The notes below the pieces were generated by a model. That model was not told the origin of the DNA. It was given only the letters and a program-made list of their open reading frames with translations, and searched no databases. DNA of 52,810 bases, from NCBI GenBank assembly GCA_020426485.1, contig JAGQPY010000003.1:4069-56878 (forward strand), given 5' to 3'. Source of the DNA: Planctomycetaceae bacterium (GTDB lineage Bacteria; Planctomycetota; Planctomycetia; Planctomycetales; Planctomycetaceae). The position numbers were made by a program, and so were the translations under genes. This document shows, in pieces, positions 12,396 to 17,351 of the stretch (its first letter is position 1; each line of letters opens with the position of its first letter).

Positions 12396-12584
12396 CTACG
12401 GAGGAGAAATCAATTCGACCTGCATTGCAGGAAAAAAGTACTTGATCATGTAGTAAACGGTTCCAATCCAGAATCCAACCCAAATCAACCGCACATACCA
12501 CGGAATCACATTGCCGCGGTAATGATGGTAGGTGTGTTCCTGTTCCGGACTTGGCTGCTCGACATGGGGTGCGGTATTCGACAT
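12396..12584 (-). CDS. Small single-span protein resembling the N-terminal anchor of CcoP (FixP_N-like)
   Basis: 62 residues, ATG at 12584 (a TTG two codons upstream is less likely). After a short polar N-terminus with several His (EHTYHHYRGN), it has IPWYVRLIWVGFWIGTVYYM and then a YFFP turn. That pattern (Tyr, N-x-x-P-x-W, one membrane helix, Y-x-x-Y-x-P) is the same as the membrane anchor at the start of CcoP/FixP, where it precedes the two cytochrome c domains. Here the protein ends right after the helix. I infer a free-standing anchor subunit, with the haem domains supplied by the dihaem lipoprotein at the head of the cluster. It lies 92 bases after the CcoS-like gene on the same strand. 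The assignment rests on a short motif. Confidence 0.65.
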   Translation of the reverse strand: MSNTAPHVEQPSPEQEHTYHHYRGNVIPWYVRLIWVGFWIGTVYYMIKYFFPAMQVELISPP

Positions 12585-12676
12585 GTTCAATAACCTATTT
12601 GATTCGGCACTGGAACTGGTCCACCGTGCTGTTTGTGGGTTTGCGGGGAGGGGCAGAAGTCCGATCCCCGGAATCT

Positions 12677-13018
12677 TTAGTGGTTCAGTTTGCTGTCCAG
12701 GATCGCTTCGTTTTCCAGCATCCGGTACTTCGGCTCTTCAATGTCATTGAACATGCCATTGTAGGCCGCAGAAAGCAGAAGGAAGAAAAAGCCAAGACTG
12801 GCAAACAGGTAATTGATCACGGGAGTGATCGCAAATCCACCATCAGCCTCTCCCTGCGTGAGGTTAACGAGTTCCATGAACTTCATCACAAACCCAAGCA
12901 TGCTGGGGATCAGAATCAACACGGCAAAAAGGATTGTCACAATCCACGCCCAGTTTCTTCCCGGTCTTCGCTTCGCTGATGATGATGTTTCGACTTGAGA
13001 GGATAAATTAGTGGTCAT
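12677..13018 (-). CDS. CcoS-like (FixS) cbb3 oxidase maturation protein with extra N-terminal helix
   Basis: 113 residues. An N-terminal polar stretch is followed by one helix (WAWIVTILFAVLILIPSMLG) and a second (INYLFASLGFFFLLLSAAYN). The second helix ends in NGMFNDIEEPKYRMLENE, which matches the CcoS consensus (G-x-F-D-D-L-E-x-P-x-x-R-I-L, usually followed by acidic residues). Classical CcoS is about 50-60 residues with a single helix, so this one has an extra N-terminal domain. CcoS is needed to insert haem and copper into the catalytic subunit. The ATG overlaps the ccoO stop (ATGA), so it is coupled to ccoO. Confidence 0.7.
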   Translation of the reverse strand: MTTNLSSQVETSSSAKRRPGRNWAWIVTILFAVLILIPSMLGFVMKFMELVNLTQGEADGGFAITPVINYLFASLGFFFLLLSAAYNGMFNDIEEPKYRMLENEAILDSKLNH

Positions 13019-13719
13019 TCGTCTGCCTCCGGGTCAGTATCTTCGTCTTCCTTTGGTGGCAACGACGAAACGTAGTCTTCGTAGTACGGGTAGCTTTCGA
13101 GCCAGGAGCCAAGCCATTGAACATAGACCATCATGGCTAAGCCACGAGCGTTTGGCTTATCGGATGCACCGTCGAAAAACCAGGGATATTCCGGCATAGG
13201 CGAGCCTGCTGAAAGGTCGAGCGGTCGGAAGAAATGGACGGCATGCCAGTCATTGCTGCGGCGTCCCCCCTCACGACTCAGGTCCGGACCGACTCGTCGG
13301 GTACCGAACATAACGGGACGATTCAGTTCGTTTTGATATTCCCATGATCGGGCCACGGGACCCCAGCGTTCTTCTTCGTTGGAGACGGGGCGGACGAATT
13401 GACTGTGACAATGCCAACAGCCTTCACCCACGTAAAGTTTATGACCATACCGAAGAGCCTCAGCGCATTTTTCGTTCCACCATGCGTCGTGTTCCGGGTC
13501 ACCACCAGGCGGCTTGCCATAAGCCGCCTCGAATGACTCCGGGTAACGCCGGGCCAGATCCTCAAACTGATAACGAAGATTGCTGTTGATCAGCTCTTCC
13601 ACAGTCTTTTCAGGGATGTTTTCGTACATCAGAGCCGGGACAACGGCATTCGACACAAACGCCAGGATGAAAAAGCCGATTCCCGCGATGTAGAGAATAC
13701 CTGCTTTGCTTTCAAACAT
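13015..13719 (-). CDS. ccoO: cbb3-type cytochrome c oxidase subunit II (CcoO), monohaem
   Basis: 234 residues: one N-terminal membrane helix (ILYIAGIGFFILAFVSNAVV) and a periplasmic cytochrome c domain with the haem-binding CWHCH at 101-105 in the context GEGCWHCHSQFVRPV, as in CcoO. A likely Met axial ligand lies in AGSPMPEYPWFF. The C-terminus is very acidic. CcoO passes electrons from the dihaem cytochrome to CcoN. It is 66 bases downstream of ccoN and its stop overlaps the CcoS-like gene. Confidence 0.93.
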   Translation of the reverse strand: MFESKAGILYIAGIGFFILAFVSNAVVPALMYENIPEKTVEELINSNLRYQFEDLARRYPESFEAAYGKPPGGDPEHDAWWNEKCAEALRYGHKLYVGEGCWHCHSQFVRPVSNEEERWGPVARSWEYQNELNRPVMFGTRRVGPDLSREGGRRSNDWHAVHFFRPLDLSAGSPMPEYPWFFDGASDKPNARGLAMMVYVQWLGSWLESYPYYEDYVSSLPPKEDEDTDPEADE

Positions 13720-13785
13720 GATTCAAGTCTCAGAAAAGTTGAGATTACGATCAGCCAGTGAACGACCAGCAATTTTCAAACACAA

Positions 13786-15192
13786 CTACGTCGCTGCCAC
13801 CACCGCTCGCGGAGCGCTGGTCCATGTCTTGTAGATGTTCCAGACGAACACGCCAACGCCGCCAAACATTGCTAATCCGGCGATGACACGCAGGACCCAG
13901 AATGGATAAGAGAAGTCAACGGAAGCATCCCATGGCTCAAGTGCGGCCCACGACCACCCCTGGAAGAGTCCCAGAAGAATCAGGTCAGACGCCATCACCA
14001 GAATACCGATTGTTGAAAGCCAGTAGTGCCACTCACACGCTTTGACACTGTGCCACGGGCGATTGAGCAGTCGAGGGAAGAGATAAGTCATCACTCCCAT
14101 AATCCACATTGTGAAGACGCCGAACATCACCAGATGTGCGTGGCCGACGACCCAGTCACTGAAGTGAATGATCTTCTGGAACGTGAGCGTGACCTGAAAC
14201 GAACATTGCAGACAGGTGAGGAAGTAAAAGACCATTCCCGTGTAGAACCATCGGATCGGAAGATTGGTCTTCACCATACCTCCGGAGCCCCAAATGGTCC
14301 CGAAGAAATTGATGACCACTGTCGTCACGACCAGTTCCACGGCAATCGTCGAAACGACGGCTCCGTATTGCAGAAACATCGGAATTGGTGTGTAAAGGAA
14401 GTGGTGAATCCCCTGGAGCGGATAGAAAAACGCCAGACCCCAAAATCCAACCAGAGACAACCCGTGGCTCCAGATCGGCTTCTTCAGCAGAATGGGGACG
14501 AAGTAGTACATCATTCCCCAGCCAAGTGGAGTCACAAACAATCCGACAAGGTCGTGAATGAACAGGCCGCCGACAGCACCGGCACTGGTACCTGTCACAA
14601 AATATTCCGGAACGAAATTCCCCATGGCGTAGGTCAGAAACGTCCACACGAACATGGCCATAAAGTACCAGAGCGTGACGTAAATCGGACCTTTCATCTG
14701 AGCGATGGGAGGCATGAAGTTGATAGCCAGCAGCAGGAGGCCCAGCTGGGCAACAGGGTCAATCCATACCGGGGTTTCACCCCATTCTAACCCCTGAGCT
14801 TCTCCAAGCAGCAAACCAACAGCGGTTGCCAGCACCACGCCCTGCCAGGCGAAGTAAATCAGCCAGGACAGCTGACGATTCAGAACAGGCCTCAGCGTCA
14901 GTCTTGGAACGATCCAATGGAGGACGCCGAGAAACCCGTTGGCCAGAAAGCCATAGGCGACGGCATTGGTGTGCACCATTCGCCAGCGTCCCGGCGAAAA
15001 GAGTTCGATTCCTGCGAGCGGATTATGGCGGATCAACTGCATCGCCATGAGAAGACCGCCCAGCATCGATACGATCAGGAACACCAGTGCCGTGACAAAA
15101 TACAGCTTGACCAGCGGTTCGTCGACCAGTGGTGTATTGTCCGCAGACGTTTGTGCGTTTAAAGAATCATCAGTCATGCTGGATTCAGACAT
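13786..15192 (-). CDS. ccoN: cbb3-type cytochrome c oxidase catalytic subunit I (CcoN)
   Basis: 468 residues, about 12 membrane helices. Ligand motifs are visible in order: HTNAVAYGFLANGFLG (low-spin haem His), FIHDLVGLFVTPLG (first CuB His), FFYPLQGIHHFLYTP (two more CuB His, with Tyr six residues before the pair where C-family oxidases have their cross-linked Tyr), and DWVVGHAHLVMFG (haem b3 and haem b His). The Tyr argues for an oxygen reductase rather than a nitric oxide reductase. The enzyme reduces O2 to water with high affinity and pumps protons. The first GHNAV of classical CcoN is IHDLV here, so it is a divergent branch. Start ATG at 15192; a second ATG lies five codons in. Confidence 0.93.
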   Translation of the reverse strand: MSESSMTDDSLNAQTSADNTPLVDEPLVKLYFVTALVFLIVSMLGGLLMAMQLIRHNPLAGIELFSPGRWRMVHTNAVAYGFLANGFLGVLHWIVPRLTLRPVLNRQLSWLIYFAWQGVVLATAVGLLLGEAQGLEWGETPVWIDPVAQLGLLLLAINFMPPIAQMKGPIYVTLWYFMAMFVWTFLTYAMGNFVPEYFVTGTSAGAVGGLFIHDLVGLFVTPLGWGMMYYFVPILLKKPIWSHGLSLVGFWGLAFFYPLQGIHHFLYTPIPMFLQYGAVVSTIAVELVVTTVVINFFGTIWGSGGMVKTNLPIRWFYTGMVFYFLTCLQCSFQVTLTFQKIIHFSDWVVGHAHLVMFGVFTMWIMGVMTYLFPRLLNRPWHSVKACEWHYWLSTIGILVMASDLILLGLFQGWSWAALEPWDASVDFSYPFWVLRVIAGLAMFGGVGVFVWNIYKTWTSAPRAVVAAT

Positions 15193-15307
15193 TTGTTCTG
15201 CTCAGCTTTGCATTGAATAAAGAAATTGATCTTCGAAACACTTCGTTTGTAACCGTCCCGGGCAACAACGACCGGCGTTAGTGAGTCACACGATTCTGCT
15301 TTTCAAC

Positions 15308-15958
15308 CTATTCGGTTGGGCGTTTGTACAATTCGAACGCACCAAATGGTGCCATAACGGCCATTGTCCAGCCGAAGACAAGATGAGTCGACAGGGCGAC
15401 CCACCATGGGAGGATGCTGTTGTCTGTGATCCAGTTACCTTTGAATAAGGCTGGCTGCAGCCACGAAAGGATTCCGTAGAAATTGACCAGCCAAACGACT
15501 ACTGCCAATACCGTTCCGAGTAACAGTCGAGCCGTCAGTGGTTTGTTCAGTGCGAAACGGCAGATGACCCAATGGAACAGGACTCCCAGAACCATTCCGG
15601 TTCCCACGTAAAGGCAGCAGCCCAGAGCCAGAATCATGCCGTCGCTGATGACATGTTGATTTCCCGTCTCTGTGGTCAGCCCTAACGCTCGTTCACCAAG
15701 TGGAAAAGTCAGGTAGACCCGGATAATTTCCAATGGGTTTTTGCCGGCAATTGGAGCACAGATGACGTTGAACAAAAGGCTTGCCATTGCAGCAATGCCA
15801 CCGTAGACAAACCCGACAGTACCGTAATAGGTTCCGTAGAACTTATCATGATCCCACTGGTCGTCTGTTCGGCTTGAGGAGATCTGTGATTCCAGCTCAG
15901 CAACCTTCTGTTTCAGTTCTGCGAGTTCGTGTTGCTTCTGTTCAATGTCTGAAGTCAT
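15308..15958 (-). CDS. Unknown membrane protein with N-terminal coiled coil in the cbb3 cluster
   Basis: 216 residues. Residues ~4-30 form a heptad-rich coiled coil (EQKQHELAELKQKVAELESQ). Four or so membrane helices follow, one in YGGIAAMASLLFNVICAPIA and others around LALGCCLYVGTGMVLGVLF and LLGTVLAVVVWLVNF. His and Trp residues sit near the membrane (LFHWVICRF, STHLVFGWTMAV). No family is recognised with certainty. It lies between the dihaem cytochrome and ccoN, 115 bases upstream of ccoN, so a structural or assembly role in the oxidase is likely by position only. Confidence 0.72.
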   Translation of the reverse strand: MTSDIEQKQHELAELKQKVAELESQISSSRTDDQWDHDKFYGTYYGTVGFVYGGIAAMASLLFNVICAPIAGKNPLEIIRVYLTFPLGERALGLTTETGNQHVISDGMILALGCCLYVGTGMVLGVLFHWVICRFALNKPLTARLLLGTVLAVVVWLVNFYGILSWLQPALFKGNWITDNSILPWWVALSTHLVFGWTMAVMAPFGAFELYKRPTE

Positions 15959-15959
15959 A

Positions 15960-16087
15960 GGGGAAATCTCTTACTGATTCTGAATGTCGCCGAAAGGTGT
16001 GTATTTCAGGGAGCCGAAACCAAAAGGCCCGGCCAGCGGTAAGCCACGGAGGATTTCCATGACATCCGCGGGAAGGCAGACCGGCCA
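15960..16087 (-). other. Short open frame (29 codons) directly after the dihaem cytochrome gene
   Basis: An ATG-started frame of 29 codons ends at a TAA close to the start of the 216-residue membrane protein gene (reads MEILRGLPLAGPFGFGSLKY, then TPFGDIQNQ). The same frame runs without a break back to the TAA stop of the cytochrome gene, so reading through that stop would add 41 residues. No good ribosome site precedes the ATG. It could be a real small protein, a former C-terminus of the cytochrome, or chance. It fills almost the whole gap between two operon genes. Confidence 0.3.
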
Positions 16088-17155
16088 TTACTCTTCCGCA
16101 GCCGCCGGAGTTGAATTCTGTGCTGCACTTTCAGTAGTGCCATACGGTTTCACCAGTCCTGCCGGGATCGGTTTTCCAAGGCGTCGCTGATTGGAGATTT
16201 CCTGAACGTAGGCGACAAGGTCCCAGATGACGTCCGGCTCTCCTGCCAGCGCGACTTTGTGGCTTGGCATCGGAGTGCCATTGATTCCGTTCAGGATTCG
16301 ACGATAGATATCGATGGGCTCCTGTCCGCCTCTCAGCATTCCGGACGTGAGGTCGGCCGCAAACGTTGGGTAACCCCAGGAGTCCGGCGGGAAAGCAAAG
16401 TTCGTTTGTCCCCGACCGTCGTCGCCATGGCACTTGCTGCAACCTTTGCTCAGGAAGGCTTCTCGTCCCTTCTTCGCACGGTCTTCGGTGAGTTCCGGCT
16501 GGGGTGTCAGTGGCTGAGTCAAACTGGTTTTGGCGACCTTCCAGCGATTGATGACGTCATCAATGAACTCCGGGACAAAATCCGGATCCAGTTCCTCAGA
16601 GGCCTCCGCTTCCTGTGAGAGCATCAGCTCCAGCTCTCCTCGCTGCGAAAGGACGATGACGTAGTCGACGACTGCTTCAAGGTCCTTCCTGGGCAGCAGG
16701 TCAAACTTTGGCATGGACGTGCCATTAATTCCGCGGTTCAAGGTGTCGATCAGATCTTCGCGTCTGGGTTTGATTCCGTACGGCGTGGACGTGAACTTGA
16801 ACATCCCCTTTGTATAGTCTCGCGGGCGGGGATACAGGTGACTGGCTGCCGGTCCGTTGCCGTCTCCGTTAACGCCATGGCACTGAACGCAGCGATGCAT
16901 GTAGACCGCCTGGCCGTGCAGGAGATGTTGCGAGAAGTCAAAATCCGGCTTCTTGTCGCTGACAAGTTTCGGGGCGGCCGCGGTGCCCGAATTCTCTTTC
17001 ACGATCTTCTGGATCTCCGCAACCAACTGGCCTTCAAGCTGCGTTACCGCTTTGCTTGACGTCCATTCGATCGGTTCTGCTCGCTCACATCCTGAGATCA
17101 CTGCCATTGCAAGGAGACTCAGAATTACACTTTGACGATAACAGGAAAGGGGCAT
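16088..17155 (-). CDS. Dihaem cytochrome c lipoprotein, probable functional CcoP
   Basis: 355 residues from the ATG at 17155; an in-frame upstream start would put 23 odd residues before a good signal. Residues 1-23 form a lipoprotein signal with lipobox VISGC (Cys23 lipidated). Two cytochrome c domains follow: CVQCH at 89-93 in a GDGNGPAA context, with Met in GTSMP near 148, and CSKCH at 239-243 in GDDGRGQ, with Met in GTPMP. A hydrophilic linker of about 60 acidic residues separates them. The domain pair and position at the head of the cluster fit the electron-entry subunit CcoP, but the usual CcoP membrane helix is replaced by a lipid anchor. It is the first gene of the cluster; its promoter must lie in 17156-17260. 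Confidence 0.88.
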   Translation of the reverse strand: MPLSCYRQSVILSLLAMAVISGCERAEPIEWTSSKAVTQLEGQLVAEIQKIVKENSGTAAAPKLVSDKKPDFDFSQHLLHGQAVYMHRCVQCHGVNGDGNGPAASHLYPRPRDYTKGMFKFTSTPYGIKPRREDLIDTLNRGINGTSMPKFDLLPRKDLEAVVDYVIVLSQRGELELMLSQEAEASEELDPDFVPEFIDDVINRWKVAKTSLTQPLTPQPELTEDRAKKGREAFLSKGCSKCHGDDGRGQTNFAFPPDSWGYPTFAADLTSGMLRGGQEPIDIYRRILNGINGTPMPSHKVALAGEPDVIWDLVAYVQEISNQRRLGKPIPAGLVKPYGTTESAAQNSTPAAAEE

Positions 17156-17264: not shown

Positions 17265-17351
17265 CTGACAAAACCGGGACAGGCACCCATCCCGGCATGA
17301 TCTTCACTGGAGTTTCAACCCCGTGTGGGGAGCCAATTCCGGTTTTGTCAG
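17265..17351. repeat. Palindromic three-hairpin element (REP/MITE-like)
   Basis: CTGACAAAACCGG at 17265-17277 is the exact inverse of CCGGTTTTGTCAG at 17339-17351 (13 of 13 pairs), enclosing 61 bases. Inside are CCGGGA/TCCCGG (17274-17279 with 17290-17295), which competes with the outer stem, and CCCC-GTGT-GGGG (17319-17330). The whole can fold as a stem with inner hairpins. It sits between two unrelated transcription units. This is the form of REP or short non-autonomous transposon-like elements mobilised by tyrosine (Y1) transposases; none is encoded here. Confidence 0.65.

Follow-up and report, generated by a model that had tools for sequence, protein, structure and literature searches.

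A planctomycete cbb3-like oxidase cluster lacking CcoP, with a candidate stand-alone anchor and a separate dihaem cytochrome

In canonical cbb3 oxidases (CcoNOQP/FixNOQP), such as those of Pseudomonas stutzeri (3mk7) and Rhodobacter capsulatus (6xkw), CcoP counts among the three core subunits; fusions of CcoO and CcoP are collected by NCBI as NF011054. In Nitrospina gracilis, subunits I-III are fused to one protein of 954 amino acids (aa) (PMC3578206), and the structure of the bc1-cbb3 supercomplex shows the CcoP helix at the interface, together with helices 8 and 9 of CcoN (PMC7876108). In this study, we analyzed a cbb3-like gene cluster in a stretch of 52,810 nucleotides (the window; contig JAGQPY010000003.1 of assembly GCA_020426485.1, positions 4,069 to 56,878) from a metagenome-assembled genome (MAG, 86% complete) of a Planctomycetaceae bacterium. 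In order of transcription, the cluster encodes a dihaem cytochrome lipoprotein, the membrane protein M216, CcoN, CcoO, the small protein M113, the single-helix protein S62, CcoI, and a DsbD_2/SafE-type protein (Table 1). The reading we favor, with a probability of roughly 0.6, is a C-family (cbb3-like) high-affinity oxidase that divides the two jobs of CcoP between two genes of different origin, one for the S62 helix and one for a dihaem cytochrome of the Kustc0457 type.

As already noted in a first-pass annotation made from the sequence of the window, the cluster contains no CcoP gene, i.e., none that joins a FixP_N helix to haem domains. A full-length ccoP elsewhere in the genome was also looked for, and no protein of the MAG exceeded the FixP_N cut-off (two weak matches had E-values of 0.08 and 0.29). 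Proteins above this cut-off were detected in five out of 40 relatives, none of them among the 11 with the CcoN type of the window (type A); these five carry another CcoN type, in which a fused CcoN-CcoO protein lies beside a normal CcoP. Across the phylum, 15 of 119 genomes had FixP_N proteins above the cut-off, again none with type-A CcoN. FixP_N and CcoP were absent from 24 type-A relatives, several of them complete or near-complete (some in one or two contigs). The CcoP arrangement by which the C-family is recognized, with a FixP_N helix and between one and three haem c domains in a single protein, was therefore found neither in the cluster nor in its own MAG nor in these 24 relatives. These absences, like the gene content, the co-occurrence and the family assignments reported below, are direct observations.

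The 11 relatives with type-A CcoN are also those in which S62 was found (identities of 44-65%), and the gene order was fixed in 10 relatives. In a scan of public sequences, 416 related stretches were detected, and counting was done on the 80 best. All of these 80 bear planctomycete names, including the isolates Bythopirellula polymerisocia and Aquisphaera insulae, except for one titled 'bacterium'. The entire gene order was present in 52 of the 80 loci, many others being interrupted by contig ends. With S62 conserved in the relatives and the full order in so many loci, a chance assembly of genes can be dismissed. A survey of planctomycete genomes for both parts, as proposed in the first-pass annotation, found S62 in 64 of the 66 loci with the required 2 kb downstream and the dihaem gene in 67 of the 69 with the required 2.2 kb upstream. 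Among the 119 genomes, the S62 profile matched exactly 14, which are those with a full-length type-A CcoN; in a 15th genome, where CcoN is truncated, the profile missed an S62-like open reading frame (ORF) located in the right place. Three public MAGs titled Candidatus Kuenenia stuttgartiensis (L189, L202, L251) carry the planctomycetacean-type cluster, and these titles are probably wrong.

S62 was described in the first-pass annotation as a 62-residue protein with only the anchor pattern of CcoP. Its position and single helix proved right, while the motifs had to be slightly shifted to N-x-x-P-W-Y (N25-x-x-P28-W29-Y30) and, at the end of the helix, Y-x3-Y-x2-P (Y45-x3-Y49-x2-P52). The proposed relation to FixP_N was recovered with the family profile, which scored above all controls, and not with the single sequence. 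By hhalign, the close S62 family reached 25.9 against FixP_N, compared to maxima of 18.3 for 57 helix windows and 24.4 for 200 column shuffles. The alignment of both profiles pairs H-x-Y-x-G and N-x-x-P, with five residues missing. In addition, a local FixP_N model was built from 20 CcoP sequences and run over 651 small membrane ORFs. The ranking was led by a fragment of a true CcoP and a single stand-alone FixP_N protein, and next came remote members of the S62 family or the corresponding proteins of other CcoN types. In another planctomycete (L174), a stand-alone, haem-free protein of 55 aa passes the FixP_N cut-off with 30.3 bits and adjoins CcoN and a CcoO-dihaem fusion. At the level of the family, S62 is thus most likely a remote FixP_N anchor.

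For the dihaem lipoprotein, the features reported in the first-pass annotation were all correct, namely the lipobox VISG-C23, the haem motifs CVQCH (89-93) and CSKCH (239-243), and the place at the head of the cluster. Its assignment as the other half of a split CcoP did not hold, because both sequence and fold place it far nearer to Kustc0457. The profile matched 6h5l_B with E=3e-49 and CcoP chains with 6e-11 or weaker, and its two CxxCH domains correspond to both domains of 6h5l_B in sequence and fold. The predicted structure matched 6h5l_B with an E-value of 3e-11 and a TM-score of 0.72 by target length, and nothing else in the fold search fell below 0.001. Chain B of 6h5l comes from the Kustc0457/Kustc0458 complex of Kuenenia. 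There, the dihaem Kustc0457 is paired not with an oxidase but with an octahaem protein similar to hydroxylamine oxidoreductase; the solved chain is shorter than the lipoprotein and does not have its long N-terminal part (PMC8862662). A true split, i.e., the division of an ancestral CcoP into one gene for the anchor and one for the haems, with the lipoprotein descending from the latter, could draw on the matches of both haem domains to generic cytochrome c/CBB3 models, on a weak match to the ccoP model (TIGR00782, 55.8 bits; cut-off 180), and on the FixP_N-like anchor. With Kustc0457 as the nearest relative, with 6h5l_B as the only structural match below an E-value of 0.001, and with stand-alone anchors in several deep CcoN lineages, it is quite improbable. 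The first-pass idea of a split CcoP is therefore only partly supported: the anchor stands, the haem half does not.

The core of the enzyme agrees with canonical cbb3 oxidases in the haem and CuB ligands and the tyrosine of CcoN, in a monohaem CcoO, in CcoI, and in a CcoS-like protein. Alignment to solved CcoN chains showed that H74, H213, Y257, H263, H264, H351, and H353 are retained; across 15 members, the tyrosine of helix VII and the histidines that bind haem and CuB do not vary. CcoN is therefore more naturally read as an oxygen reductase than as a nitric oxide reductase. CcoO matches the solved subunit (3mk7_B, E=2e-29) with its haem motif kept, as in the C-family. Differences to the canonical enzymes are the missing CcoP, with anchor and dihaem cytochrome as separate genes, and a CcoN that forms a separate deep branch, matches COX1 and CcoN models but stays far under the ccoN equivalog cut-off (TIGR00780, 195 bits; cut-off 583), and carries Gln329, invariant in 15 members, instead of the canonical helix-VIII glutamate. 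The ten relatives checked possess further haem-copper oxidases, some with much stronger COX1 scores as expected for the aa3 type, and the enzyme of the window is thus probably the low-oxygen oxidase of its hosts.

From these data, we infer one physical complex with the following helix position and electron path. The core would consist of CcoN, with haem b and haem b3/CuB, and of CcoO, with a single haem c; next to CcoN, S62 would stand in for the CcoP helix. The dihaem protein, doing the job of the CcoP haem domains, would take up electrons from the periplasmic pool, and these would pass via the CcoO haem and haem b to the b3/CuB center. The dihaem cytochrome would be lipid-anchored here, whereas in distant relatives it would either be fixed by an N-terminal helix or be released when its signal is cleaved. 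M113 and CcoI may serve maturation and copper supply. A lipid-held electron-entry subunit, as formulated in the first-pass annotation, is in line with the lipobox in the window; it is not general, since distant members have a signal-like N-terminal helix without lipobox. Using a widened lipobox pattern for the public loci, 63 of 67 dihaem proteins passed; the other four are one fragment and borderline cases, and three of them still have G-C behind a hydrophobic stretch.

Several points weigh against this enzyme model. As a single sequence, S62 of the window has no Pfam or NCBIfam match, remaining under the cut-off of FixP_N (PF14715), and with the local FixP_N model it scores at background, so that the case for its homology to FixP_N comes from family profiles, which cover a short helix. 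Since cbb3 operons also commonly hold small single-helix proteins, S62 might be unrelated to CcoP and act as a stabilizing or assembly factor like CcoQ or CcoM. We consider this unlikely in view of a profile similarity that beats all controls, of sequences bridging S62 and FixP_N, and of the mutual exclusion of S62 and FixP_N proteins across genomes. Further points are the absence of a recognizable S62 in two of 66 loci and of the dihaem gene in two of 69, and a relative of the same class (L068) that has S62 and shows no dihaem gene at the head. Moreover, the dihaem protein may be a mobile donor instead of a bound subunit. A dedicated mobile or membrane-tethered donor, with CcoN, CcoO, and S62 as the oxidase proper, would fit its own gene and signal and the simple signal or anchor helix of distant members. 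It would also have a precedent in cytochrome cy of R. capsulatus, a membrane-anchored donor known in the bc1-cbb3 supercomplex that likewise feeds cbb3, although by means of an N-terminal helix anchor and beside a normal CcoP (PMC7876108). The conserved position of the dihaem gene at the head of the cluster (67 of 69 loci) speaks against it, as do fusions of a related dihaem domain to CcoO in other CcoN types (L170-L172 among the relatives), which point to a stable association. A separate donor therefore appears rather unlikely.

In other planctomycete clusters, head-gene cytochromes with seven (L175:3715-5457) and four (L168:6582-8255) CxxCH motifs replace the dihaem protein. Also, a divergent COX1 protein (611 aa) is found between two dihaem proteins related to the lipoprotein at L080:5659-12319.

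In the CcoN tree, the type-A clade had a support of 100/99, and canonical cbb3 (Rhizobium, Neisseria, Sphingobium, Hymenobacter) together with the CcoP-bearing planctomycete type formed a separate, long-branched clade. L177 and L080 were excluded from the second tree due to very long CcoN branches. With NorB added, fused CcoP appeared as one clade (86/91). Rooting with NorB separated the canonical and type C lineages from the type A side, with stand-alone anchors on both sides of the root. This hints, but no more, at an anchor that was at first a protein of its own; the root was not relied on because of the extremely long NorB branch (6.45). Because stand-alone anchors are spread over several deep CcoN lineages, while fused CcoP is perhaps a single clade, the data agree with a helix that has never been fused no less than with one that was split off, and 'unfused' describes the arrangement better than 'split'. 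Tentatively, a separate anchor and dihaem cytochrome could even be the original state of the C-family, with CcoP arising later, when helix and haems were fused in a common ancestor of canonical and type C oxidases. The haem-free helix would then have been retained, and the haem donor exchanged freely, appearing as a separate lipoprotein, as a fusion to CcoO, or in multihaem forms. This is a possible but doubtful scenario.

A widespread planctomycete group hence appears to keep only the helix of CcoP, haem-free, beside a dihaem cytochrome of another family, which indicates that a CcoP-type helix can exist apart from the haems. Thereby, the structural role of the helix is separated from electron entry, and the arrangement offers a natural test of helix function. 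It also corrects the annotation of small proteins without Pfam name and of an enzyme below the curated ccoN and ccoO cut-offs. In the literature searched, which describes fused cbb3 subunits and did not extend to Ducluzeau 2008 on cbb3 diversity, a stand-alone anchor was not found.

Departures from separate CcoN, CcoO, and CcoP comparable to the fusions in Nitrospina and NF011054 exist in the planctomycete types B and A2, while the cluster of the window shows separation. Type B has no S62-like anchor nearby, and A2 combines a CcoO-dihaem fusion with an S62-like anchor. At L070, L071, and L180, CcoN, CcoO, and a dihaem domain are contained in one protein of ~900 aa, similar to Nitrospina (PMC3578206); those of L071 and L180 are accompanied by a CcoS-like small protein, and an anchor is not evident at any of these three loci.

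The positions of the genes in the first-pass annotation were correct, and all genes are located on the minus strand (Table 1). The extent of the cluster had been set too short, as M216, M113, CcoI, and the DsbD_2/SafE-type protein also belong to it.

Table 1 Genes of the oxidase cluster in the window, in order of transcription
Feature	Position	Strand	Characteristics
Dihaem c-type cytochrome lipoprotein	17155-16088	minus	355 aa; first cluster gene; VISGC, CVQCH, CSKCH
M216, membrane protein	15958-15308	minus	216 aa; N-terminal coiled coil and about four helices; no known family
CcoN-like catalytic subunit	15192-13786	minus	His/Tyr active-site residues of cbb3 retained
CcoO-like monohaem subunit	13719-13015	minus	CWHCH; one N-terminal helix; FixO E=7e-31
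M113, two-helix protein	13018-12677	minus	113 aa; CcoS/FixS-like C-terminal half; start overlaps ccoO stop
S62, single-helix protein	12584-12396	minus	62 aa; ATG start; haem-free; FixP_N-like anchor (most likely)
CcoI/FixI-like copper P-type ATPase	12046-9602	minus	next after S62, also in relatives
DsbD_2 (TauE/SafE-type) membrane protein	9605-8862	minus	final conserved cluster member

M113 is CcoS-like according to the profile similarity of its C-terminal half, which by hhalign scored 42.8 against CcoS (null maximum 18.0 of 54). It has an extra helix in front, and with Pfam FixS it reached 15.9 bits, below the cut-off of 23.1. M216 was present in most public loci, with conservation chiefly within the class of the window, where its gene is nearly always located between the dihaem gene and ccoN. 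Sequence scans with M216 gave no known family, and a PDB fold search with its AlphaFold2 model (predicted local distance difference test, pLDDT, 81) gave no match. PDB profile searches using S62, M113, and M216 yielded nothing meaningful. Directly upstream of the cluster, a palindromic element (17265-17351) consists of 31-nt arms and a 25-nt spacer. It has 39 matches in its own genome, mostly diverged copies, and resembles repetitive extragenic palindromes (REP) or miniature inverted-repeat transposable elements (MITE).

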